Below, piece after piece: positions 2,370 through 22,695 of a stretch of 24,806 nt of DNA. The stretch is from IMG/VR virus record IMGVR_UViG_3300020215_000134, positions 1-24,806 of that record. The stretch is one strand, 5' to 3'. Every line of letters begins with the position of its first letter. The first letter of the stretch is position 1. Source of the DNA: a virus. The notes below the pieces were generated by a model, which saw only the letters and a list, made by a program, of their open reading frames with translations, had not been told where the DNA came from and searched no databases. Both the position numbers and the translations under genes were made by a program.

Positions 2370-4048
2370 GCTGGCGCACCGCCTGTCCCGACTGGGCTGC
2401 TCGCATCCGCGCCGGCCGGTCGCTGGTCCCGGACCTGCCGCTCATTAAGGCCGAGGCGGACTGCGCGGTCGAGATATTCAGCCGCCTTCGGCTCCCGGAC
2501 GTCCCGGGCCAGCCAGAGTTGCGCACCGCGGCCGGCGAATGGCAGCGCGACATGGTCCGCGCCCTGTTCGGCTCCTACGATCCGGCGCGGAACGTGCGGC
2601 ACATCCGCGAAATCTTCGCGATGGTGCCGAAGAAGTCGAGCAAGACCACGGCTGGCGCCGCCATCATGACGACGGCGCTGCTGATGAACCGCCGCCCGCG
2701 CGCCGAGTTCCTGCTGATCGCGCCGACCCAGGAGATTTCCGACCTCGCATACCGCCAGGCGGTGGGCATGATCGAGGCGGACCCGGTTCTCGCGGCCAAG
2801 GTCCACATCCGCGAGCACCTCAAGACGATCATCTTCCGCCCCACCGGGGCGTTCCTGAAGGTCAAGTCCTTCGACCCAAAGGTCGTGACCGGCAGCAAGC
2901 CCGCCGGCGTCCTGCTGGACGAGCTCCATGTGATCGCCGAGGCGCCGAACGCGGATCGGGTCATCGGGCAGCTTCGCGGCGGCCTGATCTCGCAGCCCGA
3001 AGGCTTCCTCGTCACCATCACCACCCAGAGCGAGCGCGCGCCGGCCGGCGTGTTCAAGGCAGAACTCAAGACGGCGCGCGATGTGCGCGACGGCAAGCTG
3101 CAAGCGCCCATCCTGCCGCTGATTTACGAGTTCCCGCCCGACATCATGGCGTCGGACGCGTGGCGTGACCCCGCCAACTGGCCAATGGTCACGCCGAACA
3201 ACGGCCTCTCCATCACGGTCGAGCGCCTCGTCGATGAGTTCAACCAGGCAGAGGCCAAGGGCGAGGCGGAATTTCGCCGCTGGGCAACTCAGCACCTCAA
3301 TATCGAGCTGGGGGTCGCTACCGCAGACGACAGTTGGCCCGGCGCGCAATACTGGGAACGCCGCGCCGACCCCACGCTGACGCTCGACACCCTGATCGAG
3401 CGGTGTGACGTGGCCGTGGTCGGCATCGACGGCGGCGGGCGGGACGACCTCCTCGGCCTCGCCGTCATCGGCCGCGAGCGGGGCACGCGCCGCTGGCTGG
3501 TCTGGTGCCGCGCCTGGTGCGTCCGCAACGTGCTCGATATCCGCAAGAGCATCGCATCCACGCTGCGCGACTTCGAGGCGGCCGGCACGCTCCGGATCAT
3601 CGACAACGAATCCGCGGAGGATGTGGTCGAGGTCGCGGATATCGTGGAGCGGCTCGACCGCGAGGGCTTGCTTCCGGATCGGCACGCCATCGGCGTGGAC
3701 CCGTCCGGCATCGTGGAAATCGTGGACGAGCTGCGGTCGCGCGGCTTCGACGCGGCAGAGGACGGCAACGGCCGTGTGGTCGGCGTCTCTCAGGGCTACC
3801 GGCTGAACGGCATCATCAAGACCTGCGAGCGGCAGGTTGCGACCGGCGGCCTGGTCCATGAGGGCTCGGGCCTGATGAACTGGGTCGTCGGCAACGCCAA
3901 GGTCGAGGCGCGCGGGAACGCGGTGCTGATCACCAAGCAGGCGAGCGGGACGGCGAAGATCGACCCGCTGATGGCGATGTTCAACGCCGCGGACCTGATG
4001 AGCCGCAATCCGGCCCCCGCGCTCGTCCCGGAGATGTTCGCAATCTAG
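2342..4048 (+). CDS. terL: Terminase large subunit
   Basis: ATP-driven DNA packaging motor and nuclease, 568 residues. The ATPase half has a Walker A-like loop VPKKSSKTT at 95-103 (a divergent P-loop usual for this branch) and Walker B VLLDE at 190-194. The nuclease half starts around residue 355, with VVGIDGGGRDD placing a likely metal-binding Asp at 363 and another acidic candidate at D453 (GVDPSG). It acts at the portal vertex with the small subunit to cut concatemers and fill the prohead. The GTG at 2342 is chosen because AAGGGA lies four bases upstream and no other start in frame precedes the conserved CPDWAARIRAGRSLVPDLPL segment. The portal gene follows after 15 bases. Confidence 0.96.
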   Translation: MGSPAEPALGWRTACPDWAARIRAGRSLVPDLPLIKAEADCAVEIFSRLRLPDVPGQPELRTAAGEWQRDMVRALFGSYDPARNVRHIREIFAMVPKKSSKTTAGAAIMTTALLMNRRPRAEFLLIAPTQEISDLAYRQAVGMIEADPVLAAKVHIREHLKTIIFRPTGAFLKVKSFDPKVVTGSKPAGVLLDELHVIAEAPNADRVIGQLRGGLISQPEGFLVTITTQSERAPAGVFKAELKTARDVRDGKLQAPILPLIYEFPPDIMASDAWRDPANWPMVTPNNGLSITVERLVDEFNQAEAKGEAEFRRWATQHLNIELGVATADDSWPGAQYWERRADPTLTLDTLIERCDVAVVGIDGGGRDDLLGLAVIGRERGTRRWLVWCRAWCVRNVLDIRKSIASTLRDFEAAGTLRIIDNESAEDVVEVADIVERLDREGLLPDRHAIGVDPSGIVEIVDELRSRGFDAAEDGNGRVVGVSQGYRLNGIIKTCERQVATGGLVHEGSGLMNWVVGNAKVEARGNAVLITKQASGTAKIDPLMAMFNAADLMSRNPAPALVPEMFAI

Positions 4049-7948: not shown

Positions 7949-9322
7949 GTGCTCCGTGATGGCCAGCGACAGGTCGCCCCGACCCTCGATGGGATCAGGG
8001 CCGACCATCTTGCCCGGTATCGCTGGGCCGCCCAACGCCTCCCCGCCGCAAGCCGCGTCATCGACGTGGCCTGCGGCGTGGGCTACGGCGCCCGCATCCT
8101 CGCCGAGGCCGGGCACCGCGTGCTCGCCATCGACAACGACCCGGAGGCGATTGCCTACGCGCGCGAGCACTACGCGCACCGGCGCATTCGCTACCGGCAG
8201 GCAGACGCGTCCGCGCTCGGCGACCTGAGCGGCTTCGCGCCGGACGCTGCCGTATCCTTCGAGACCATTGAGCACCTCGCCGATCCGGCGCCGCTGCTGA
8301 CGGCTCTCCGCGCCGCGCCGCTGCTGCTCGCAAGCGTGCCGAACGAGACGGTGTTCCCGTTCCGCGGCTACCTCCACCACCACCGCCACTACACGGCGGC
8401 CGAGTTCACGGACCTGTTGCGCGAGACCGGATGGCAGCCCCGCCTCTGGTTCGGCCAGGCCGACGCCCATTCCGATGTCCTGCCCAACGTCGAAGGAAGA
8501 ACCCTCGTGGCTGAAGCCAAGCGCGCTCGCCCAAAGCGCCGCTCCCTCTCCAAGGCCCTGGCGCCCGTCGCGCCGCCCCCGGCCGCCGCCCCTCCTCCCG
8601 GCCCGCGCCACGTCGCGATCCTCGGCCTCGGGCCGACGCTGGAGGCCTACGTGGACCTCGTGAAGCGCCTCGGCGGGCGCCACAAGCTCTGCGATGAGGT
8701 CTGGGGCATCAACGCCGTCGGCGGCGTGCTCCAGTGCGACCGCATCTTTCACATGGACGACGTGCGGGTGCAGGAAATCCGCGCCGCCGCTCATCCGCAG
8801 AGCAACATCGCGGCCATGTTGGAATGGCTGCGAACGCATCCCGGCCCGGTCTATACGTCAGTGCCGCATACCGACTACCCCGGCCTTGTCGCCTACCCCT
8901 TGCAGGAAGTGATCAACAGCGTCGGCTACGCCTACTTCAACAGCACGGCCGCCTATGCGGTCGCATTTGCCATCGCGTCCGGCGTTCAGAAAATCAGCCT
9001 GTTCGGGATCGACTTCACCTATCCGAACAGCCACCAGGCCGAGAAGGGCCGCGCCAACGTCGAGTTCCTGTTGGGCATCGCAGCCGCGCGCGACATCGAG
9101 ATCGGCCTGCCGAGCAAGACGACGCTCATGGACGCCATCGAGGGCGACACGCTCTATGGCTACGACATGGTGCGCGTGACGATCACGCAGGACGGCCCGG
9201 CGCAGCCTGCGACAGTGACGTTCACCGAGCGCGAAGCGCCGCCGCCCACGGCCGAAGAGATTGAGCGGCGCTACGATCATTCCGCACATCCGAACCGCCT
9301 TGTGGCGGAAAGGGGGGCCTGA
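7949..9322 (+). CDS. SAM methyltransferase fused to a putative glycosyltransferase-like domain
   Basis: A two-domain protein of 457 residues from the GTG at 7949, one base after the previous stop. Residues about 15-185 are a class I SAM-dependent methyltransferase: motif I VIDVACGVGYG at 37-47, the acidic end of strand 2 in AIDNDPEA, and FETIEHL at 104-110, as in the UbiG-like group. A Pro/Ala/Lys-rich linker (about 187-220) leads to a second domain opening with HVAILGLGPTLEAY at 221 and containing an Ala-rich helix before KISLFGIDF (GID at 353-355). That pattern recalls DUF115/MptE-like and GT42 sialyltransferase-type proteins (GxGPSL early, AIxxGxxxIxLxGIDF late); this resemblance is tentative. 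A role in modifying virion or host surface glycans is plausible but unproven. Confidence 0.8.
   Translation: MLRDGQRQVAPTLDGIRADHLARYRWAAQRLPAASRVIDVACGVGYGARILAEAGHRVLAIDNDPEAIAYAREHYAHRRIRYRQADASALGDLSGFAPDAAVSFETIEHLADPAPLLTALRAAPLLLASVPNETVFPFRGYLHHHRHYTAAEFTDLLRETGWQPRLWFGQADAHSDVLPNVEGRTLVAEAKRARPKRRSLSKALAPVAPPPAAAPPPGPRHVAILGLGPTLEAYVDLVKRLGGRHKLCDEVWGINAVGGVLQCDRIFHMDDVRVQEIRAAAHPQSNIAAMLEWLRTHPGPVYTSVPHTDYPGLVAYPLQEVINSVGYAYFNSTAAYAVAFAIASGVQKISLFGIDFTYPNSHQAEKGRANVEFLLGIAAARDIEIGLPSKTTLMDAIEGDTLYGYDMVRVTITQDGPAQPATVTFTEREAPPPTAEEIERRYDHSAHPNRLVAERGA
8495..8509 (+). promoter_or_regulatory. Possible internal ribosome site and GTG start
   Basis: GGAAGA at 8495-8500 lies six bases before an in-frame GTG at 8507, exactly at the junction between the methyltransferase and the second domain. 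Initiation here would yield a separate protein of about 271 residues ending at 9322. Whether it is used cannot be decided from sequence. Confidence 0.4.
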
Positions 9323-10809: not shown

Positions 10810-13557
10810 ATGGCGCGCCAGCCAAAGCATCCGGGGCGGCATACACGGGTTCTCCGCACGCACCCTCGCGCGCGGGGGCTGGTGCATGACTGGTCCGTTT
10901 ATGACGGCATCGAGCGGCAGATCATTGACCGCGGGCTTCGGCCCGCGAATGGTGTTTTCGGCTCGGGGAATAGCGGCACAACCGGCAACTATTGGCGCAC
11001 AGACCAGCACGGCTGGGGGATTGACTTCGACCCGACTGGTACGGGCACTTTCGCCTCGCAAGAGCTTGTGGTCGGTAACAGCGCCGGAAGCGGGAACCCC
11101 ACAAACGGGGCGTCATGGACGCTCGCCTGCTTCGTGTCGCTGGCGTCTACGGGCTCGACCCAGACGCTGTTTTGCGGCTCTATCGCGGGGTCTATTCAGC
11201 TTCGTGTGGAATCCAGCAATACGCTCGGGCTGGTGGCCACCAGCACGGCGCTAGACGGGACTTCCACCGGCACGCTGTCGGCCGGCGTTCGCACGCATGT
11301 GGCCGTCACTTACGACGGTAGCACCGCGCGCTTCTACATTAACGGGCTCGCGTCTGGCACAGCGTCGTTCAGTCGGACGTATGGCGTTGATAATCAGGCG
11401 ATCCTTGGTGCTAAACCCGGCAGTGAATACCTAAGCCTCGGCTCGCGTATCTGGAACTTCCGCGTCTGGGACCGGCCGCTGTCGGCGGCGGAAGTGCAGG
11501 ACGAGGCGCTCGATCCGAACGGCATCTATGTGCTACCGACGCGCCTCGGCTGGCGGCGCGATGTGCCGGCGCTGTGGAGCACGACAAGCGGCGCGGGCGC
11601 CACCGCGCCCGGCGCGACGATCACAGCCTATGCCTTCCTGAACCCGGGCAGCGTCACAGCGACCGCACAGGTCGCGGAGACACCCTCCGTCAAGACGGCG
11701 ACGGGCGCTGGCAGCGAAACCGCGCCTGCCGGGGCGGTCGCGGTGGATCTGGAAGTCTGGGGCGCCGGTGGGTCTGGCGCGAAGCAGACCAACACCGGGC
11801 GCCGCGCATCGGGCGGCAACGCCGGCAACTTCGCCAAGACCTCCGGCATCGCTGTCACGGGCGGCAGCACGGTCGTCTACTGGAACGTCGGGACCGGCGG
11901 CACGAGCGGCACCGCAGCGGCGGTGGGCAATGCGGGCGGCCAGTCCTGGGCGCGCGTCGGCACCAATGCGGCGCCGACCAGCACCACGGACGGCGCCCTT
12001 GCATCGGGCGGTAACGCCGGCGCCCAGAGCACATCCGGCACGGCGCAGCCCACGGCGCAGAGCACGGCAAGCGACGTCGGCACCATCAAGAACGCCGGCG
12101 GGCGCGCGGGCGCGGCCTCGGGCGGCGGATCGGCGACCGGCGGCGGTGGTGCGGCAGGCCCCGCCGGCGCGGGCGGCGATGCGGCAGCGGTCAGCACCGC
12201 AGCGGGCGGCCAGGGCGGCGCGTCGGCTGCTGGCACATCAGGGGGCGCAGGCGGCACCGCTGCCAACGGCACGGCCGGCACATCGGCGGAAGCCGGCGGC
12301 TCGGGCGGCGGCGGCTCCTACGGCAACACATCTGCCTTTGCGGGCGGTCAGGGCGGTGCGCCTGGCGCGGGCGGTGGCGGCGTCGTCACCAGCAGCACGG
12401 CGGCGGGCTCCGGCACAGGAGCCGGCGGGCGCGGTCAGGTCCGGCTCACCTACTACACGCTCACCCAGACGGCGGTCGCGCAGGGCAGCACCTTCACGGC
12501 CGCGGCATCGCTGATCGCCGGAACGGCATCAGGTCCGAACGGTGATGCCAGCGCGGGCGGCGCCACGCTCTCGGCGACGGCCAGTCTCACGGCAGGCGCG
12601 GCCACGGCGGCGAGCACCGCCGCGGGTGCGACGGTCACCGCCACCGCCTCCCTGGTGGCCGGTGCCGCCTCGGCGGACTACACGGCAGCCGGTGCGACGC
12701 TGATTGCGGCGGCCTCGCTCACCACGGGTGGGGTCACCGCGGCCTCTACCGCGGCAGGCGCCACCATCGCGGCGGCAGCATCGCTGACGGCCGGGGCCGC
12801 CTCGGCAGACAGCACGGCGGCTGGCTCCACCATCGCGGGCACGGCCAGCCTCGTCACCGGGGCGGCAAGCGCCGCCTCCTCTGCGGCGGGCGCCACCGTC
12901 ACCGCCACGACTGCCTTCACGGCTGGCGCCGCCGCGGCAGGGCAGATTGCCGATGGCGTGACGCTCACGGCCACGGCATCGCTCGCCGCTGGGGCTACTA
13001 CCGCGGAGAGCACCGCACCCGGCGCCACCCTCACAGGGGCCGCCGCGCTGGCCGTAGGGGCGGCGACAGCGGCGTCCACGGCGGCGGGGGCTACCCTCGC
13101 CGCATCCACCTCTCTGGCCGCTGGTGGGGCCTCCGCGGCGGCGAACGCGGCCGGTGCCACCCTCACCGCGGCGGCATCCCTGACCACGGGGGACGCGGCG
13201 GCCGATAGCACCGTCCCGGGGGTGACCTGGGGGGCCGCAGCATCCTTCATTGGCGGCGCCGCCACCGCATCGGTTCTCGTCCCCGGCGTCGTGCTTGTGG
13301 CCGAGCCGATCCTGATCCCGGGTGCGGCCATCGGGGGTGAGATCATCCCCGGCGCGACCCTGACCGCTCAAGCCTCGCTGATCCGAGGCCGCGCTGCGGC
13401 ACAACCCTACGGGCGGCCCGCCAACACGGCGGCCTCCGCCCGGCCCGCTGGCACCGCAGCCGCAGAGCGGGGCTCCGGCACCGGTGCCGTCGCCCGGCCT
13501 GCCGGCACGGCCGCGACACCCCGCGGCGCCGGCGCGCCCGCCATCTATCGCCCGTGA
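10810..13557 (+). CDS. Modular LamG / glycine-rich / repeat structural protein
   Basis: A 915-residue modular virion protein, probably a fibre or surface adhesin. Residues about 70-235 form a LamG/concanavalin-like lectin domain (WTLACFVSL, VAVTYDGSTARFYINGLASG, WNFRVWDRPLSAAEVQDEAL). A first copy of the 22-residue repeat appears at 266-287. It is followed by a glycine-rich region (about 313-550) that opens with VDLEVWGAGGSG and closes with GGRGQVRLTYY, the style of glycine-rich phage tail adhesins. Residues 582-867 hold 13 tandem 22-residue units and 869-913 five 9-residue units rich in Arg-Pro and Thr-Ala-Ala. There is no signal peptide or transmembrane segment. Its place between capsid and connector genes is unusual for a tail fibre, so head attachment is possible. 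Confidence 0.82.
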   Translation: MARQPKHPGRHTRVLRTHPRARGLVHDWSVYDGIERQIIDRGLRPANGVFGSGNSGTTGNYWRTDQHGWGIDFDPTGTGTFASQELVVGNSAGSGNPTNGASWTLACFVSLASTGSTQTLFCGSIAGSIQLRVESSNTLGLVATSTALDGTSTGTLSAGVRTHVAVTYDGSTARFYINGLASGTASFSRTYGVDNQAILGAKPGSEYLSLGSRIWNFRVWDRPLSAAEVQDEALDPNGIYVLPTRLGWRRDVPALWSTTSGAGATAPGATITAYAFLNPGSVTATAQVAETPSVKTATGAGSETAPAGAVAVDLEVWGAGGSGAKQTNTGRRASGGNAGNFAKTSGIAVTGGSTVVYWNVGTGGTSGTAAAVGNAGGQSWARVGTNAAPTSTTDGALASGGNAGAQSTSGTAQPTAQSTASDVGTIKNAGGRAGAASGGGSATGGGGAAGPAGAGGDAAAVSTAAGGQGGASAAGTSGGAGGTAANGTAGTSAEAGGSGGGGSYGNTSAFAGGQGGAPGAGGGGVVTSSTAAGSGTGAGGRGQVRLTYYTLTQTAVAQGSTFTAAASLIAGTASGPNGDASAGGATLSATASLTAGAATAASTAAGATVTATASLVAGAASADYTAAGATLIAAASLTTGGVTAASTAAGATIAAAASLTAGAASADSTAAGSTIAGTASLVTGAASAASSAAGATVTATTAFTAGAAAAGQIADGVTLTATASLAAGATTAESTAPGATLTGAAALAVGAATAASTAAGATLAASTSLAAGGASAAANAAGATLTAAASLTTGDAAADSTVPGVTWGAAASFIGGAATASVLVPGVVLVAEPILIPGAAIGGEIIPGATLTAQASLIRGRAAAQPYGRPANTAASARPAGTAAAERGSGTGAVARPAGTAATPRGAGAPAIYRP
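12553..13410 (+). repeat. 13 tandem 66-bp units (22-residue repeat)
   Basis: Thirteen in-frame units of exactly 66 bases, none with an indel. The consensus is roughly AAGATLTAxASLTAGAAxA plus three variable residues. A looser first copy lies at 12478-12552. Units differ widely at third codon positions but keep the protein pattern (G at 3, T at 5, hydrophobic at 6, S/L at 11-12, G at 15), so the repeat is old and maintained at protein level. Confidence 0.9.
13414..13548 (+). repeat. Five tandem 27-bp units (9-residue repeat)
   Basis: Five consecutive 9-residue units at the very C-terminus: RPANTAASA, RPAGTAAAE, RGSGTGAVA, RPAGTAATP, RGAGAPAIY, then RP and stop. Arg opens each unit, giving a regularly spaced positive charge. 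The segment is a different repeat from the 22-residue array just before it. Confidence 0.85.
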
Positions 13558-15201: not shown

Positions 15202-15834
15202 GTGATCGTCCCTACCCATCACCATGCACAGCGCGGCACGCATTCAGCTGACGCGCTGCTGGAATGGCTGGCTGACAAATCCTGGACGCCGTTCTCGCGC
15301 GAGACCCTTGAGGCCGACCTTCGCCTCACGCCCAATGAGGGGCCGGGCCTGCTCCCGAAGCCCCATCTGGTCTGGACACGCGGGACAGATCGGGTCGCGG
15401 CTTCGACCGTGCGAACAAGCTATTGGCACGGCCCGGATCGGATGCGCGAACTAGGCTTTCGGCTACAGCGGCTGTTCGATCTGGGCGACGTCATCGAGTT
15501 CTTCCGGGATACGGTCGGCTTCCGATGCCGAGTATGCCGAGAGGTGACCGCGCGGAGCGGGCTCGCCGAGTTTCCGAGCATCTATGAACCGGACCGGGAC
15601 GCGCTCTGCGCCATTTGCGCGAACCAGGTGAAGGATGCATTGCGCGGCGACAAGCGTGCCCGCGACGCCTTGGTGAAGATGCCCTGGCAGGTGCGGGCCG
15701 CCCGCGATGCGGTGCGGCGCCTCCTGGCGCCGGAGCGGCGGCTGACACGCGCCACGCGAGATGACCTGAAGACCATCGCCGAGGCGCTCGGTTTGCGCGA
15801 CGGCGACTGCGCCCCCCACGCCCGAGAGAACTAG
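15202..15834 (+). CDS. Zinc-knuckle protein of unknown function
   Basis: A 210-residue protein from the GTG at 15202. Residues C109/C112 and C136/C139 (CRVC and CAIC, 23 residues apart) form a likely four-cysteine zinc site. The first 60 residues are rich in His, Trp and Thr (HHHAQRGTHS, LLEWLADKSWTPF). The C-terminal 70 residues are basic and helical (VRAARDAVRRLLAPERRL and ATRDDLKTIAEALGL), compatible with nucleic-acid or protein binding. No ribosome site is clear, so a later start remains possible. Its presence inside a structural operon is odd for a regulatory protein. The family is not recognised. Confidence 0.6.
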   Translation: MIVPTHHHAQRGTHSADALLEWLADKSWTPFSRETLEADLRLTPNEGPGLLPKPHLVWTRGTDRVAASTVRTSYWHGPDRMRELGFRLQRLFDLGDVIEFFRDTVGFRCRVCREVTARSGLAEFPSIYEPDRDALCAICANQVKDALRGDKRARDALVKMPWQVRAARDAVRRLLAPERRLTRATRDDLKTIAEALGLRDGDCAPHAREN

Positions 15835-15921
15835 TCGCGGCGCCCGCGAGGGCGGCGTCGTGACGCATGGCTGCTGCCCGGCGGCCGTCATCGCCCTCCG
15901 TTTTCCATAAGGAGCGACGAC

Positions 15922-17418
15922 GTGGACAGCAATCGCGTGCGCGTGGCCACCACAATCGAAGCCACGCTGGGCACAACCCCCGGCTCTGCGCGCATGCGCA
16001 CCGCCCGCATCACCGGCGAGAGCCTGCGCTACACGCCGAGCTTTTTCCAGCCGGCGGAACTGCGCTCCGACCGCATGAACCAGGCGCCATCGAAGCAGAA
16101 CGAGAGCGTCTCCGGCGGCGTCAACTTCGAGTTTTCCTTCCCGACCGACGCGACGTTCCTCTCGGACATGATCCGCTCGGCGATGTATTCGACGTGGGTG
16201 CTCACGCCGCAGCACTTCAACGACGGCACGGCGGATTCCGTCATCACGGACTACCAGTCCGGCACGGGCGTCTATACCGTCGTCGATCAGTCGGGCTCCG
16301 GCGGCTTTGCGGGCACCGCCTACAAGGTCGGGCATCTGGTGCAGGCCAGCGGCTTCACGGCCTCGAACAACAACCGCATCGCGCGCGTCTCCGCGTCCAC
16401 CGCGACCTCCGTCACGGTGGCGACCGGCGGCACCACCGACACGGCGCCGGCCGCCGCCGCCATGCTCAAGGTCGTCGGCTTCCGCGGCGCGACCGGGGAT
16501 ATCACCGCATCCTCCACCGGTCTCGCTTCCACGGCGCTGGACTTCACCACGCTCGGCCTCGCGGTCGGCCAGTGGATCAAGATCGGCGGCACCGCAGCGG
16601 GCGAGCAGTTCGCCACCGCGGCGCTGAACGGCTGGGCGCGCATTACGGCCATCGCCGCGACCGCGCTCACGCTCGACCATCGCCCGGCCGGCTGGACCAC
16701 CGACGCAGGCACCGGCAAGACGATCTCCGTCTGGTTCGGCGACTACATCCGCAACGGCACCACCCGGACCTCCTTCTCCATCGAGAAGGCGTTCCTCGGT
16801 CAGGCCACGCCGACCTACATCATCCACCGCGGCATGGTCGTGGATCGCTTCTCCCTCCAGGCGATCACGGACCAGGCGATCACGGGCTCGGCCGAGTTCA
16901 TGGGCCTGACCGGCGCGGCCGGCACATCCGCCTATGGCACGACCTACGATGCCGCGACGACCGAGACGGTCCTGACCGGCAACGCGAGCGTCGGTCAGAT
17001 CACCGTCGGCGGATCGTCCATGGCGTCGCCCAACTGGGCGCGGCAGCTCGACATCCAGATCCAGAACAACGTCCGCATGATCAACGCGCTCGGGAACATC
17101 GGCGCGGTGGAACTGGGCGTGGGCGAGATGGCGATGACGGGCACGCTGGCGACCTACTTCGGCGGCCTGTCCTACCTCACCGACCTGTTCGCCGCGGGGC
17201 AGACCACGATCACCAGCCGGGCGCAGACGACGCGCACGGCGGGCACGTCCGGCAAGGCCGTGGTCAAGACCATCCCGCAGGCGACCTTCACCGGCGGCGC
17301 GCCGAACGCGCAGGGCAAGAACCAGGACGTGCTGCTCTCCCTGCCGTTCTCCGCGTCCATCGACAGCGCGACCAACTGTCAGATGCAGTGGGACCGCCTG
17401 CCGTATTTCGAGCAATAG
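15922..17418 (+). CDS. Major tail (tube) protein
   Basis: Forms the stacked rings of the tail tube. The N-terminal part (MDSNRVRVATTIEATLGTTP, MRTARITGESLRYTPSF, SVSGGVNFEFSF) and the later SFSIEKAFLG...IIHRGMVVDRFSLQAI and WARQLDIQIQNNVRMINALG segments are typical of phage tail tube proteins. At 498 residues it is longer than many. The extra length lies around residues 100-265, where two similar beta units seem duplicated (about 133-178 and 205-262). AAGGAG at 15909-15914 lies seven bases before the GTG start, in keeping with high expression. Two hairpins follow the stop. Position before the chaperones and tape measure matches siphophage order. Confidence 0.9.
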   Translation: MDSNRVRVATTIEATLGTTPGSARMRTARITGESLRYTPSFFQPAELRSDRMNQAPSKQNESVSGGVNFEFSFPTDATFLSDMIRSAMYSTWVLTPQHFNDGTADSVITDYQSGTGVYTVVDQSGSGGFAGTAYKVGHLVQASGFTASNNNRIARVSASTATSVTVATGGTTDTAPAAAAMLKVVGFRGATGDITASSTGLASTALDFTTLGLAVGQWIKIGGTAAGEQFATAALNGWARITAIAATALTLDHRPAGWTTDAGTGKTISVWFGDYIRNGTTRTSFSIEKAFLGQATPTYIIHRGMVVDRFSLQAITDQAITGSAEFMGLTGAAGTSAYGTTYDAATTETVLTGNASVGQITVGGSSMASPNWARQLDIQIQNNVRMINALGNIGAVELGVGEMAMTGTLATYFGGLSYLTDLFAAGQTTITSRAQTTRTAGTSGKAVVKTIPQATFTGGAPNAQGKNQDVLLSLPFSASIDSATNCQMQWDRLPYFEQ

Positions 17419-17426
17419 CAGCTTCG

Positions 17427-17446
17427 GCCTGGGCTTCGGCCCGGGC
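17427..17446 (+). other. UUCG tetraloop hairpin after the tail tube gene
   Basis: An eight-pair stem (17427-17434 with 17439-17446, one G-T pair) is closed by C(TTCG)G, the most stable RNA tetraloop class. It begins nine bases after the tail tube stop and precedes a second, terminator-like hairpin by 22 bases. A likely role is 3'-end stability of the tube mRNA. Confidence 0.6.
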
Positions 17447-17468
17447 ACGAGGGCGCCGCGCGGCGCGG

Positions 17469-17501
17469 GGCGGCGGCGTTGGGCAGCGCCGCCGCCTCTT
17501 T
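17469..17501 (+). terminator. Terminator-like hairpin (probable attenuator)
   Basis: A perfect ten-pair GC stem (GGCGGCGGCG at 17469-17478, CGCCGCCGCC at 17487-17496) has an eight-base loop and is followed by TCTTT. It is the best intrinsic-terminator candidate in the window. Because essential tail genes follow on the same strand with no visible promoter, partial termination that lowers expression of the chaperones and tape measure relative to the tube is more likely than a full stop. Confidence 0.62.
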
Positions 17502-17535
17502 CCCGCCCATGCCCATCACAGGAACACAGCCCACA

Positions 17536-17970
17536 ATGGCGAAGCTTGCCAGCTTCCGCATCAACTCGCGTGCCATCGAGGAAGGCGAATGGGTCGCCGC
17601 CGGCGACGAATGGGGCGACCTTGAAGTCAAGGTCCGCGGCTTCACCAACGCCTACCACGACGCGCGCAACGCCGCGATCCGCCGAGCCGCCGTGCCCTAC
17701 GCCGGCCAGGCCGACCGCATCCCCTCGGCCATCGCCGACCGCATCGTCTGCGATTGCGTCATCAAGCACCTGTTCCTCGACGTGCGGAACCTCACGGGCG
17801 ACGACGGCCAGCCCGTCACGCGCGAGCAGTTCGTGGAACTGATGCGCAACCCGGACTTCAAGCCGCTGGTCAACGCCGTGATCGTGGCTGCGGCCAAGGT
17901 GGGCCAGATCCGTGAGGCCGAGGCCGAGGCCGCGGAGGGAAACTCTGCGCGGCTCTCCGCCGGGCACTGA
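17536..17970 (+). CDS. Tail assembly chaperone, G-type (zero-frame product)
   Basis: A 144-residue protein analogous to lambda gpG, made by ribosomes that do not shift frame. It coats or guides the tape measure during tail assembly and is absent from finished virions in known systems. The frame is open from 17479, but the ATG at 17536 (MAKLASFRINSRAIEEGEW) gives the expected start; the longer version would begin inside the hairpin. The protein is mixed, with SAIADRIVCDCVIKHLFLDV and VTREQFVELMRNPDFKPLV in the middle and a Glu/Ala-rich end (REAEAEAAEGN). The slippery sequence at 17937-17943 precedes the stop TGA at 17968. Confidence 0.84.
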   Translation: MAKLASFRINSRAIEEGEWVAAGDEWGDLEVKVRGFTNAYHDARNAAIRRAAVPYAGQADRIPSAIADRIVCDCVIKHLFLDVRNLTGDDGQPVTREQFVELMRNPDFKPLVNAVIVAAAKVGQIREAEAEAAEGNSARLSAGH

Positions 17971-18338
17971 GCGGAGCGCCGCAGACTGCTGACTGGCTTG
18001 CCCGGATCGCGGAGGAAGACGCAACCGCGGCCGAGGCCATGGCCCATCTCGTGGAAGCCACGGCCGACGCAGAGGACGTGGACCCGGGCTTTGCCTGGAT
18101 ATGGCGCGCCTGGCAGCGCCTTTCCCTCGACCGCCGGCTGGTGGGCGTCGGCCTGTCCGGCGTGATGCCGCAGCGCATTCCGTGGACCACGCTCGCGGCC
18201 TGGTGCGAGTGGCACGGCCACTCGGCCGAAGACCTGGACCTGCTCGACCGCTGCACCGTCGCGATGGACCGCGTGTTCATCGAGTGGTGGCAGGAGCGGG
18301 CGCGGCAGAACACCCCCAACACAGGAGCTCCCCCATGA
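17536..18338 (+). CDS. Tail assembly chaperone GT fusion by -1 frameshift
   Basis: A predicted 267-residue second product. Ribosomes read 17536-17943 in the first frame, slip back one base at G GGA AAC, and continue from base 17943 to the stop at 18338. The downstream frame has no stop from the slip site onward. It encodes about 131 residues starting L-C-A-A-L-R-R and running through DWLARIAEEDATAAEAMAHL to GFAWIWRAWQRLSLDRRLVG and ends in TPNTGAPP. In lambda and most siphophages the GT protein bridges the chaperone to the tail tube subunits, and a fixed G:GT ratio matters for assembly. An ATG at 18039 lies in this frame, but it has no good ribosome site. The next gene's ATG overlaps the stop (ATGA). 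Confidence 0.83.
17937..17982 (+). promoter_or_regulatory. -1 programmed ribosomal frameshift signal
   Basis: The heptamer GGGAAAC at 17937-17943 is in correct phase (G GGA AAC) for tandem slippage to GGG and AAA, the lambda G-T type. Five bases later a stem of eleven pairs with one T-C mismatch forms between 17949-17960 and 17971-17982, with a ten-base loop that contains the zero-frame stop. Slip site, spacer and stem together are what a -1 signal needs. Confidence 0.87.
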
Positions 18339-18613
18339 ACACCGGCGATATGGTTCTGTCGTCCGCGACCCACGCGGCCATCTGGACGGGTGCCGCCCTT
18401 GAAGCCGTCCCCGACGCGCAGGCGTCGCTCGACTTCGAGCGCATGCACGTCACGGTCCGCGTGGGCGTGACGCCCGTGCTGCCGACAGGCCGGCTGATCC
18501 TGAATGCGCCGGACTTCGCCGGCTGGACGGGCAGCGTGTCCATCAGCGATGTCGGCACCGGCGTGGCGCGCGACGGGCGCGAGGACAATGCCAGCGAGGG
18601 CAGCGCGGCCTGA
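18335..18613 (+). CDS. Small hypothetical tail-module protein
   Basis: A 92-residue protein starting at the ATG that overlaps the GT stop (ATGA), with CAGGAG at 18322-18327 seven bases upstream. The same frame is open further upstream from 18101, but that part is antisense-like noise inside the chaperone gene. The sequence is beta-leaning (RMHVTVRVGVTPVLPTGRLI, GWTGSVSISDVG) with an acidic tail (DGREDNASEGSAA). It has no recognised family. It may be a minor tail or assembly factor, given its position between chaperones and tape measure. Confidence 0.66.
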   Translation: MNTGDMVLSSATHAAIWTGAALEAVPDAQASLDFERMHVTVRVGVTPVLPTGRLILNAPDFAGWTGSVSISDVGTGVARDGREDNASEGSAA

Positions 18614-18618
18614 CCTGA

Positions 18619-19248
18619 ATGAGCGCCTCCGCCTTCGCGCGCACGGTGGATGTTTTCGCCGCGCAGAACCTCTCGCCGGCCGCGCTGTCGGCTCGGCTGG
18701 CGGAGACGGCGCGGGAGGATGTGGCGCGGCTGATTGCGTCGGGGCGGGCCTCGCCCCGCTACCGGCGCTTCGTGGATGGTGTGGAGGGCGCGCCCGAGAC
18801 GGCGGTGAAGCCGGACGGGATGATCCTCTACCGCTTCGACTACATGGCCGAGGTCGCGGCCTTCGTTCTGTCGTTCCTGGAAGCGCGCGCGCCGAAGCGG
18901 ACGGGCGAGTTCAGCAAGAGCTTCTACCTGGGGCTCGACGGAAAGTTCGTCCCGGCACGGTTCTTCAATCCGGCGACGATGGGCGATGTGCGCGAGATCG
19001 CGTGTGGGAACATGCAGCCGCAGGCGCGCATCGCGGACACTCAGATGGTCGGCACCAAGCGCGTCCGGTTCAGCGTGCCGCCCGGCATGTTCGAGGATGC
19101 GGCGCAGGCCGTGCGCAGCCGGTTCGGGAACATCGTCACGGCCAAGCGGGTCTACACGCTCCGCTGGCCGGGCCAGTACACGCTGCGCACCGGCAAGCGC
19201 GCGGGAAAGCCCGTCGAGAGCCCGGCCGTGGTCATCACGCGGAGGTAG
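18619..19248 (+). CDS. Putative tail-module protein
   Basis: A 209-residue protein between the chaperones and the tape measure. It begins with a helical region (SARLAETAREDVARLIASG), followed by PRYRRFVDGVEGAPE, VKPDGMILYRFDYMAEVAAF, the KRTGEFSKSFYLGLDGK segment and a C-terminal beta part ending in AVVITRR. The arrangement of a helix followed by PKRTGEFSKS is reminiscent of HK97 gp10-like neck or tail-completion proteins (helix, then 'TGxLxxS'), a weak similarity only. The following gene's ribosome site overlaps its stop codon (GGAGGTAG), which shows tight linkage to the tape measure. Confidence 0.66.
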   Translation: MSASAFARTVDVFAAQNLSPAALSARLAETAREDVARLIASGRASPRYRRFVDGVEGAPETAVKPDGMILYRFDYMAEVAAFVLSFLEARAPKRTGEFSKSFYLGLDGKFVPARFFNPATMGDVREIACGNMQPQARIADTQMVGTKRVRFSVPPGMFEDAAQAVRSRFGNIVTAKRVYTLRWPGQYTLRTGKRAGKPVESPAVVITRR

Positions 19249-19251
19249 TGC

Positions 19252-22200
19252 ATGGCGACGGTCAGCCAGGTCACCGAGGCGGTCTATCGCGGGCGCTACG
19301 AGGACCAGATGTCCGCGGGCGCCAAGGCCGCGACCGAGGCGCTCAAGCAGAACACCGCCGCCGTCGTCGAGAACGAACAGAAGGTCACGGCCGCGACGCG
19401 CAGCGCGTCCACTTGGGTCAACAAGACCGACGAGGTGACGCGCGCCACGAAGTCGCTGGAAACGGCGCAGAAGCAGCTTGCGACGGCGCGCGAGACGCTG
19501 ACCCGGGGCGTCGCCGCCGGCGAGGTCACGGACGCGCAGGCGGCGCGGGCCATCGCCGCCCTTGAGGCCAATGTCGCGAAGGCGCAGACGCGCGTGGCGG
19601 CCCTCTCCGCCGCCTACGGGCAGGCCACACCCGCCGTTACGGGCGCCGGGACCGCCATGGCGGCCTCGGCCGTCCATGCCGAGCGGCTTGCGAACCAGAC
19701 GCAGCTCACCAGCCGCCAGATGGCGCAACTGGCGCCGCAGTTGAACGACATTGCCGTCCAGCTTGCCGGCGGGCAGTCGCCCTTCCTGATCATGATGCAG
19801 CAGGGCGGGCAGATCACGCCGATTTTCGGCGGCATCGGGGCGACGCTCCGCGCCTTTGCAGGCGCCCTCGGCACGGTGGGCCTCGCGGCCGTCGGCGCAG
19901 CGAGTGCCCTCGCCGTCATGTTCTCGGCGCTGAACACGCAGCAGAGCGCACTCGCGGAACTGCGCGGCAGCCTTCGCGCCGTCCCGGGCGACTATGCGGC
20001 GATGGCGCGCGAGGTTGAGGCATCGGCCCAGCGGCTTGCGGCATCGGTGCCCGGCCTCTCCCGCGCCGATGCGCGATCCTCCCTCGTCACGCTCAGCCAG
20101 GGCGCCGCTGCGGCCCGGCTGGGGTTCTCGGCCGGCGACCTGGAGCAGCTTGTTCGCTCCGGGCAGGACTTGGCCCGCGTCCTGGGCACGGACCTGGAGG
20201 ACGCGATGCGCCGGCTGGCGCAGGGCATGCGCGACCCGGCGGCCATGGTCGCCGACCTCGCCCAGCGCGGCTTCCCGGGCTTCGATCAGGCGCTCCGGGC
20301 CAACGTCCAGCAGCTTATGGCCGAGGGCCGGGAGGTGCAGGCGGTCACGGCCGCCTTCGGGCCGCTGCGCGACCGTATCCAGGGCGCCGGGCAGGACGTG
20401 GGGCCGCTGGAACAGGCCACGCGCCGGCTCACGCAAGCCTGGGAGCAGTTCAAGCAGGCCATCGGGCCGACGCTGGTCAACGCGGCGACGGCGGTCCTCG
20501 ACGTGTTCACGCGGCTGGCGTCCGTCTCGGGCGTCATCGCCGAGGCCATCGGCCGCATGGGCGGCTCGGAAGTCGTGCGGCTGATCGGCAGCCTTGTCGG
20601 CGGCGGCGCGCGCGCGGGGACGGCGACGAACCCCGGCGGCCCGGTGGGCGGCCTGCTTGCCGAGGCAGGCCAGATCGCGGGCCTCGATCCGGGCTTCCTC
20701 GCGATCATCCAGCGCATGGAGAACCGACAGCGAGCGGACGGCACGTGGCCGACCAGCCCAGCCGGCGCGGTTGGGCCGATGCAGGTCATGCCGGGCACCT
20801 TCGCCGAACTGGCAAGGCGCTATGGGCTTCCGGGCGATGTAGGGGACGAGCGATCCAATGTGATCGCGGGCGCGCTCTATCTGCGTGAGTTGATTGACCG
20901 CTTCAACGGCGACGTGCGGGCGGCCGTCGCCGCCTACAACGCAGGGCCGGGGCGGGTCGAGGGCGTGGCCGGCAACTTTGACCGGCTCCCAAGAGAGACG
21001 CGAGACTATCTGGCGCGGTTCGAGCCGCAGTGGGTCGTCACGCAATCCCCGGTCACGGGGCCGCTAAACCGGGGCCTGATCACCGCACCGGCGGCGCCGA
21101 CCGCCACGCTCCCGCCCACCGTTGTCACCGCGCCGGCCCCAGGCGTCTCGCCGACCTCCACGGAAAGCGCTCTCGACCGCGCGCTGCGGCTTGCCAGCGG
21201 CGACCTGCCAGCCTTCGCGCCCGGCTCCTCCATCGAGGCGCAGCAGGCGGGCCTCGCCCGCGGCCTGCGCGAGATCGAGGAGGCGATGCGCGGCGTCGCG
21301 CAGGGCTCCGTCGAGTGGGATCGCCTTTCGGAAGGCGCGCGCCGCTTCCGCGAGCAGATCGCGAGCACCATCACGCCGGCTGAGCAGTTGGAGCGGCAGT
21401 TGCGCTTGCAAGGCGCCTCTGCCGGCATCGTGGAGCAGGCCCAGCGCACGCTCACGCAGCGCATGGCGGAATACGACGAGACGGTGCGCCGTTCCGGGCG
21501 CCCCGCCGACGCCGAGGCCCGCGCGCGCTACCAGGCCGAGCAAATCCGGCAGATCAACGCCGAACTCAGCGCCAGCATCACCCTCACCGAACGCGCCTCG
21601 ACGGCTCAGGGGCGGATCGCCGACGCCTATCTCCGTTCCGAGCAGGCGGGGCGGCGTCAGGAACTCGTGGAGCGCGCGCTCCGCGAGGTGCGCAACCAGG
21701 GCGTCCTGACGCAGGATGAGCAGATCGCGCGCGTGAACCAGATGGTGGCGGCCCTAGAGCGCGAGCAGCGTGCGACGGCCAATCTCGCGGCGGCACAGCA
21801 GGCGGCCCGGTTGAATCGCGATGCCGATATTGCCTTGCGCGAGCGCGAACTGATTACCAGCCGCAACCGCGAAGTGGAAATGGCTGGCCTCAATGCGCAG
21901 CGGAACATCCTGAACCGTCCCGGCGGCACCCTGAACTCACCGGAGGCCCAGGCCGAGATTGCTGCCGCGCGAAACCTCGCCCGGATGCAGCAAGAGAACC
22001 AGCAGCTACAAAACTCCTGGAACGAACTGGCCAACGGCGCCGAGCGATCCTTCGACCGCATCGGCACCGCGATCACCGAGGCGATGGTGCAAGGCCGCAT
22101 GAGCATGGCGAGCCTCGCCAACGTCGCGCGCGGCATCGTCTCGGAACTGATCCAGCAGTTCATGCGCCTCGCGATCCTGAACCCGATCCTGAACAGCCTC

Positions 22201-22695
22201 TTTGGCGGCAAGCGCGGGACGATGGGCGGCATCCTGGACCTGCTCGGCATGGGTGCCAGCGCCTATGCGGGCGGCGGCTGGGGCCAGGGGCAGATCATCT
22301 ATTCCTCACCCATCGGCCCAGGCTACGCCCGCGGCGGCGCCTTCAACGCCGGCATGGAAATTCACCCCTTCGCCTATGGCGGCGTCGTGGACAGCACCCG
22401 CGTCGTGCCCATGGCCATGATGGGCGAGGCCGGGCCAGAGGCCATCATGCCGCTTCGTCGCGGCAAGGACGGCAAGCTCGGCGTCGCGTCCGACGGCGCG
22501 ACCGCCGCGCCCGTGATCAACATGGGCGATATCCACGTCGAGGCGCCCGCCGACACCAAGGGCGCCGGCCCCGACGATCCCGCCGCCGCGGAACGCCTCG
22601 CCACCTGGATCGCCGGCCAGATCAAAGTCCAGGTCTACGAGGTGCTCACCAAGGAACTGCGCGGCGGCGGCGCCCTCTCCATGGCGCGCGCATAA
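19252..22695 (+). CDS. Tail tape measure protein with lytic transglycosylase domain
   Basis: At 1147 residues, the longest complete gene here. It spans the tail lumen and sets tail length. The first 130 residues and about 690-975 are Ala/Gln/Arg/Glu-rich coiled-coil helices, and 190-230 is a hydrophobic stretch (LRAFAGALGTVGLAAVGAAS) as common in tape measures. An SLT-type lytic transglycosylase is embedded at about 470-585: likely catalytic E490 in QRMEN, GAVGPMQVMPGTF at 505-517, and AAYNAGPGRVEG near 560-571. It should help DNA cross the peptidoglycan. The C-terminus carries the lambda-type GEAGPEAIMPLRRGKDGKLG from residue 1058. GGAGG overlaps the previous stop. At the usual 1.5 angstrom per residue, the tail would be roughly 170 nm if no part is excluded. 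Confidence 0.93.
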   Translation: MATVSQVTEAVYRGRYEDQMSAGAKAATEALKQNTAAVVENEQKVTAATRSASTWVNKTDEVTRATKSLETAQKQLATARETLTRGVAAGEVTDAQAARAIAALEANVAKAQTRVAALSAAYGQATPAVTGAGTAMAASAVHAERLANQTQLTSRQMAQLAPQLNDIAVQLAGGQSPFLIMMQQGGQITPIFGGIGATLRAFAGALGTVGLAAVGAASALAVMFSALNTQQSALAELRGSLRAVPGDYAAMAREVEASAQRLAASVPGLSRADARSSLVTLSQGAAAARLGFSAGDLEQLVRSGQDLARVLGTDLEDAMRRLAQGMRDPAAMVADLAQRGFPGFDQALRANVQQLMAEGREVQAVTAAFGPLRDRIQGAGQDVGPLEQATRRLTQAWEQFKQAIGPTLVNAATAVLDVFTRLASVSGVIAEAIGRMGGSEVVRLIGSLVGGGARAGTATNPGGPVGGLLAEAGQIAGLDPGFLAIIQRMENRQRADGTWPTSPAGAVGPMQVMPGTFAELARRYGLPGDVGDERSNVIAGALYLRELIDRFNGDVRAAVAAYNAGPGRVEGVAGNFDRLPRETRDYLARFEPQWVVTQSPVTGPLNRGLITAPAAPTATLPPTVVTAPAPGVSPTSTESALDRALRLASGDLPAFAPGSSIEAQQAGLARGLREIEEAMRGVAQGSVEWDRLSEGARRFREQIASTITPAEQLERQLRLQGASAGIVEQAQRTLTQRMAEYDETVRRSGRPADAEARARYQAEQIRQINAELSASITLTERASTAQGRIADAYLRSEQAGRRQELVERALREVRNQGVLTQDEQIARVNQMVAALEREQRATANLAAAQQAARLNRDADIALRERELITSRNREVEMAGLNAQRNILNRPGGTLNSPEAQAEIAAARNLARMQQENQQLQNSWNELANGAERSFDRIGTAITEAMVQGRMSMASLANVARGIVSELIQQFMRLAILNPILNSLFGGKRGTMGGILDLLGMGASAYAGGGWGQGQIIYSSPIGPGYARGGAFNAGMEIHPFAYGGVVDSTRVVPMAMMGEAGPEAIMPLRRGKDGKLGVASDGATAAPVINMGDIHVEAPADTKGAGPDDPAAAERLATWIAGQIKVQVYEVLTKELRGGGALSMARA

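Follow-up and report, generated by a model that had tools for sequence, protein, structure and literature searches.

The question raised by this locus is whether two overlapping reading frames of a phage tail module, the second of which lies in the -1 frame of the first, are separate genes or the two halves of one tail assembly chaperone joined by ribosomal frameshifting, as in the G and GT products of phage lambda. Xu, Hendrix and Duda reportedly described a conserved G-T frameshift in 2004. The DNA analysed is a stretch of 24,806 nucleotides from a virus, called the window throughout, and a preliminary description made from its letters alone had read the locus as a gpG/gpGT -1 frameshift cassette. 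We put the probability at about 0.95 that the two halves of a lambda-type tail assembly chaperone are joined here by programmed -1 ribosomal frameshifting.

The slip site and the reading frames

The candidate slippery heptamer, GGGAAAC, is at 17937-17943 on the plus strand and is the only copy in the window when both strands are searched. Read as G GGA AAC, it keeps the phase of the open reading frame 17536-17970, hereafter G, which begins at ATG 17536 and ends in a TGA at 17968-17970, 24 bases 3' of the heptamer. No stop interrupts the -1 frame between about 17916 and the stop codon that ends at 18338. Both the phase of the heptamer and the open -1 frame had been pointed out in the preliminary description and are as it said. 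The heptamer is built on rare codons, GGA being used for only 80 of the 938 glycine codons in the long open frames of the window, and this counts for a programmed frameshift. When the overlap was shuffled with its dinucleotides preserved, an in-phase XXXYYYZ of any kind appeared in 10.7% of the shuffles and one with YYY=AAA in 1.2%. Taken by itself, the window makes a case for frameshifting that is suggestive; it is the comparison of its sequence with those of relatives that makes the case compelling.

The G and T proteins and the neighbouring genes

The G product of 144 aa (17536-17970, plus strand), which ribosomes that do not slip would make, matched PHROG 313, 'Tail assembly chaperone', with an E value of 6e-10 and phrog_19222 with an E value of 2e-31. 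The -1 frame encodes a T-type domain of 131 aa (17943-18338, plus strand) that matched the Pfam family Phage_TAC_18 with an E value of 1.5e-7, above the family cut-off, and phrog_3817, 'tail chaperonin', with an E value of 9e-12. By these profile matches G and T are members of tail assembly chaperone families. A GT fusion would be 267 aa long, 136 aa of it from G and 131 aa from T. AlphaFold modelled both with confidence (pLDDT 93 for G and 87 for T), and the best viral fold match of each is the same protein, the 268-aa pre-tape measure chaperone of Caulobacter phage CcrColossus, at only about 20% identity in the fold alignments. The first PDB match of the G model was the HK97 tail assembly chaperone 2ob9, and it is a weak one both in Foldseek (E 0.04, probability 0.89) and in VIA-align 2, where it again came first (Z 5.9, rmsd 7.0 over 96 residues). 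Sequence profile searches of solved structures with G or T gave no relevant match.

The gene order is tube, G/T, tape measure. G and T are between a tail tube protein gene (15922-17418, plus strand; Phage_tube_2, E 2.4e-24) and a tape measure protein gene (19252-22695, plus strand; TMP_2, E 3e-25, with an SLT domain), as in lambda-type cassettes, and the surrounding module is siphophage-like, with terminase, portal, protease and capsid genes. Two small genes, of 92 and 209 aa, separate T from the tape measure gene. The first of these (18335-18613), directly 3' of T, has no Pfam or PHROG match, and it had only two matches among the relatives fetched, presumably the window and its own copy, L033. 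A lambda-type heptamer, GGGAAAG, is in phase at 19203-19209, close to the 3' end of the ORF 18619-19248 that precedes the tape measure gene. It was considered as a second frameshift site and rejected as a chance occurrence; it is kept in only 3 of 111 homologous matches, the window and L033 included.

Some other features of the window were noted in passing. The minus strand has an 853-aa open frame (15463-18024) antisense to the tube and G genes, which is probably a by-product of high GC content and not a gene. In a 915-aa protein (10810-13557), a long, repetitive tail rich in Ala, Thr and Gly comes after a Laminin_G_3 domain. Among the capsid-module genes, a 457-aa ORF (7949-9322) has a methyltransferase domain at the N-terminus, and its C-terminal half matches nothing in Pfam. 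Beside the terminase genes, the ORF 44-1321 fuses a ParB_N-like domain, just under the Pfam cut-off, to an N6_N4 DNA methylase.

Conservation of the junction among relatives

No match was found with G as the query in viral and genome contigs because G is too divergent for peptide patterns. Relatives were therefore retrieved through the neighbouring tail tube protein, and Azospirillum phage Cd was added. From 22 members, HMMs of G and of T were made, and 119 loci matched both; these comprise 84 distinct junctions. Where a G or T match was lacking, the contig mostly stops short of the region or within it. In the aligned relatives the identity of G to the G of the window is 15-44%. T is in the -1 frame of G in all 84 distinct junctions and in none of them is it fused in frame; the G/T overlap of every one contains an X XXY YYZ heptamer in phase. 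The preliminary description had named homologues that lose the heptamer while keeping both frames intact as the finding that would count against its reading; there were none among the 84, and the reading as a gpG/gpGT cassette is borne out. The -1 reading straight after the slip site is itself conserved, with L1 in at least 90%.

These data bear on the possibility that the heptamer is there by chance and that G and T are unrelated overlapping frames of GC-rich DNA. Long spurious ORFs are common in high-GC DNA, the window is 69% GC, and an in-phase heptamer in an overlap of this size is no rarity, as the shuffles showed. However, G and T each match protein families and were modelled with confidence, and the repetition of their arrangement in every one of these divergent junctions already refutes such an explanation, the probability of which is negligible.

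The heptamer ends in AAC in 81 of the 84 junctions, 58 being AAAAAAC and 23 GGGAAAC; the other forms are AAAAAAG, GGGAAAG and AAAAAAA. The heptamer of the window had been singled out as a variant for ending in C, but AAC is the rule here, and phage tail chaperones with AAC sites are already in the literature (PMC3556154, PMC3483164, PMC5009743). On a tree of the tube proteins, made with FastTree and weak in parts, the XXX part has gone from AAA to GGG or back at least 12 times and the heptamer has never been lost, which argues for tandem slippage on either form. It is conceivable that the fusion is made instead by RNA polymerase realigning on a run of A, since A AAA AAC, which many relatives have, is an A6 run and transcriptional slippage is used by other bacterial genes (PMC5009743, PMC3711429). 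But the longest run in GGGAAAC, the form in the window and in about a quarter of the family, is three, and throughout these switches the geometry for the re-pairing of tandem tRNAs and the phase were kept. Transcriptional slippage is thus very improbable.

A further alternative is that T is a separate gene with its own start, at ATG 18039 or GTG 18051, that is translated by re-initiation or coupling after the stop of G, the heptamer being incidental. ATG 18039 would give an ORF of 99 aa that covers the Phage_TAC_18 core; this ORF, which gene callers had been predicted to report, is indeed present as the product of a mechanical ORF call. Neither start has a Shine-Dalgarno-like 4-mer 4-11 nt before it. 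Within 45 codons past the slip site, the T frame has no ATG in 51 of 67 relatives and no ATG, GTG or TTG whatever in 15 of them, and in 59 of the 67 there is no start with a Shine-Dalgarno-like motif for T. A separate start would also leave unexplained why the heptamer and the -1 reading right after it are conserved without exception in the first case and nearly so in the second. We consider a separate start unlikely. Programmed frameshifting into T also accounts for the loss of T in annotation: in Azospirillum phage Cd (CU468217.1), T is intact at 3402-3773 in the -1 frame after GGGAAAC-TAA, and the GenBank record has no gene annotated over it.

The hairpin downstream of the heptamer

Five nucleotides after the heptamer begins a hairpin (17949-17982, plus strand) with arms at 17949-17960 and 17971-17982. 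It has 11 pairs and one mismatch (17954 x 17977), the geometry originally given for it, and a loop of ten bases with the TGA of G at the 3' end. RNAfold gave the same stem with three additional pairs inside the loop that engage the T and G of the stop, and an energy of about -25 kcal/mol for the segment. The stem had been put forward as a strong feature of the window, but it is unexceptional for the GC content, since 13 of 200 shuffles folded equally well and synonymous recoding of T gave a z of -1.5 (p 0.09). That it is only marginal against these nulls is because of the high GC content of the DNA, and the support for it is comparative.

In the 67 non-redundant junctions, the 50 nt 3' of the heptamer were compared with synonymous recodings of T. 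The mean z was -1.23, with 43% of the junctions at p<=0.05, and when the same test was shifted 60, 120 and 180 nt further it was -0.58, -0.38 and -0.06; these z values are approximate, the codon-usage nulls having drawn on all open frames of at least 250 codons, some of which are spurious in GC-rich DNA. Helices with 6 or more contiguous pairs cluster at i+j = 59-61, and a hairpin in these fixed columns is present in 37 of the 67 junctions as against 15.4 +/- 3.0, and at most 24, in 300 simulations of the synonymous null. The covariation score of the named stem was 0.237 as against 0.151 +/- 0.015 when shuffled and 0.110-0.188 when the stem was slid, in an ungapped alignment of 51 sequences that were picked from the 67 after inspection, so that this score favours the stem, whereas the synonymous test took all 67. 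An alignment of homologues had been proposed at the outset as a check on heptamer and stem; among the relatives compared here the heptamer is always there, and the hairpin exceeds its synonymous null and covaries.

The hairpin is not uniform in the family. The stem of the window is two columns off the commonest register, its spacer of 5 nt compares with a family mode of 7-8 nt, and about a quarter of the relatives have no excess structure; the stem-loop of the window starts within the 5-9 nt after the heptamer expected of a dnaX-type cassette. RNAalifold found no consensus structure in the 51-sequence alignment, probably because the stem is displaced by a column or two from one member to another and is absent from some. 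For this reason the hairpin was judged by counts of the named structure and by synonymous-codon nulls. A search of the window against Rfam gave no match.

The Shine-Dalgarno-like element upstream

An element that the preliminary description had overlooked is a Shine-Dalgarno-like GAGG at 17926-17929 (plus strand), which ends 7 nt before the heptamer and is a possible stimulator. A 4-mer of this kind (AGGA, GGAG or GAGG) is 5-9 nt, mostly 6-7 nt, before the heptamer in 42 of the 67 junctions, and the synonymous null gave 24.9 +/- 3.0. The profile of anti-Shine-Dalgarno pairing also peaks at this position. A control on Glu codons was mixed, with p 0.002 against the tube gene and 0.22 against other codons of G. 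The GAGG perhaps aids slippage.

The position of the zero-frame stop

The TGA that ends G is formed from CTG-A in the codons of the -1 frame, and in the relatives too the zero-frame stops arise from Leu codons of T (CTG-A, CTA-A/G). Of the 67 junctions, 59 have an early stop, no more than about 54 nt away, as against 28.9 +/- 3.5 in the synonymous null, an enrichment that had likewise escaped earlier notice. Two positions make up most of it: the stop abuts the heptamer in 21 of the 67 (9.0 expected) and is placed as in the window in 29 (13.2 expected), and the corresponding counts among all 84 junctions are 31 and 35. On the tube-protein tree the class of the stop has changed at least 26 times. 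It had been claimed that the stop sits in the hairpin loop, so that a terminating ribosome would melt the stem. The first part holds for the window, at the 3' end of the loop, but is not general because of the junctions in which the stop abuts the heptamer; the second is plausible for the window and is no rule of the family, in which the stop class varies.

A possible, if doubtful, extension is that phages of Alphaproteobacteria and their kin share an AAC-centred, dnaX-like three-part cassette in which the position of the stop further sets the rate. Where the stop abuts the heptamer, in about a third, a release factor would compete with slippage, and the stop would have moved repeatedly while the ratio of the products was kept.

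How the cassette would work

From the sequence features described, we infer slippage itself, its rate and the chaperone function as follows. Most ribosomes would translate G and terminate at 17968. A minority would pause on G GGA AAC, the hairpin then standing where the mRNA enters the ribosome, and the GAGG behind may assist. The tRNA-Gly and tRNA-Asn would then slip back one base in tandem and T would be translated, so that a minor product, a GT fusion of about 267 aa, is made beside G. If the analogy with lambda holds, G and GT would coat the tape measure protein and T would recruit tail tube subunits; the functions of lambda G and GT are summarised in a review (PMC5009743). The efficiency of slippage in the host of this phage is uncertain, an A-site AAC being a much weaker slip codon than AAG in E. 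coli (PMC5009743). For two HK97-like tail chaperone genes, GeneTack work measured 6-7% frameshifting (PMC3711429).

The tail-chaperone frameshift was known already, and the present results extend it to a well-documented group of phages and prophages that diverge widely. With two heptamers, two main stop positions and variable hairpins, the group is a natural series for asking how an AAC slip site is tuned outside E. coli.

Comparison with known systems

The cassette resembles lambda G/GT (G GGA AAG) in the -1 direction, the heptamer class, the position between tube and tape measure genes and the logic of two products. It differs in that the A-site codon is AAC and not AAG, the downstream hairpin and the upstream Shine-Dalgarno-like motif are conserved at the family level, and the two small genes stand between T and the tape measure gene. 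Genes intervening before the tape measure gene are also reported for HK97, SPP1 and KL1 (PMC3483164). Both heptamers of the family are tail chaperone slip sites elsewhere, namely AAAAAAC and GGGAAAC in the Caulobacter phages phiCbK and Colossus, respectively (PMC3556154), and likewise GGGAAAC in HCTV-1 and AAAAAAC in HCTV-2, which are haloarchaeal viruses (PMC5009743). The likeness to Colossus extends to its chaperone, which at 268 aa is almost the length of the GT fusion and is the best viral fold match noted above, whereas the identity is low and the phiCbK-type phages are large prolate siphophages. In Burkholderia phage KL1 (gp18/gp19) the GGGAAAC adjoins a TGA, as in our abutting-stop relatives, and a stem-loop is predicted downstream (PMC3483164); in contrast, the stop in the window is 24 nt downstream and inside the hairpin loop. 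A parallel in its three parts is E. coli dnaX (A AAA AAG), which has a Shine-Dalgarno-like motif, a heptamer and an 11-pair stem-loop (PMC5009743), but dnaX is another gene, its Shine-Dalgarno motif is about 10 nt upstream rather than 6-7 nt, and its heptamer ends in AAG rather than AAC. Tail chaperone frameshifts are handled as routine by PRFect (PMC10885494). Thus, by sequence comparison, the cassette of the window is confirmed as a predicted programmed -1 frameshift of the lambda G/GT type, ordinary in kind, strongly conserved and with a mechanism that is known already; the slight novelty is in the evidence, drawn from the family as a whole, for a cassette of three parts and for selection to keep the zero-frame stop early although its position shifts.
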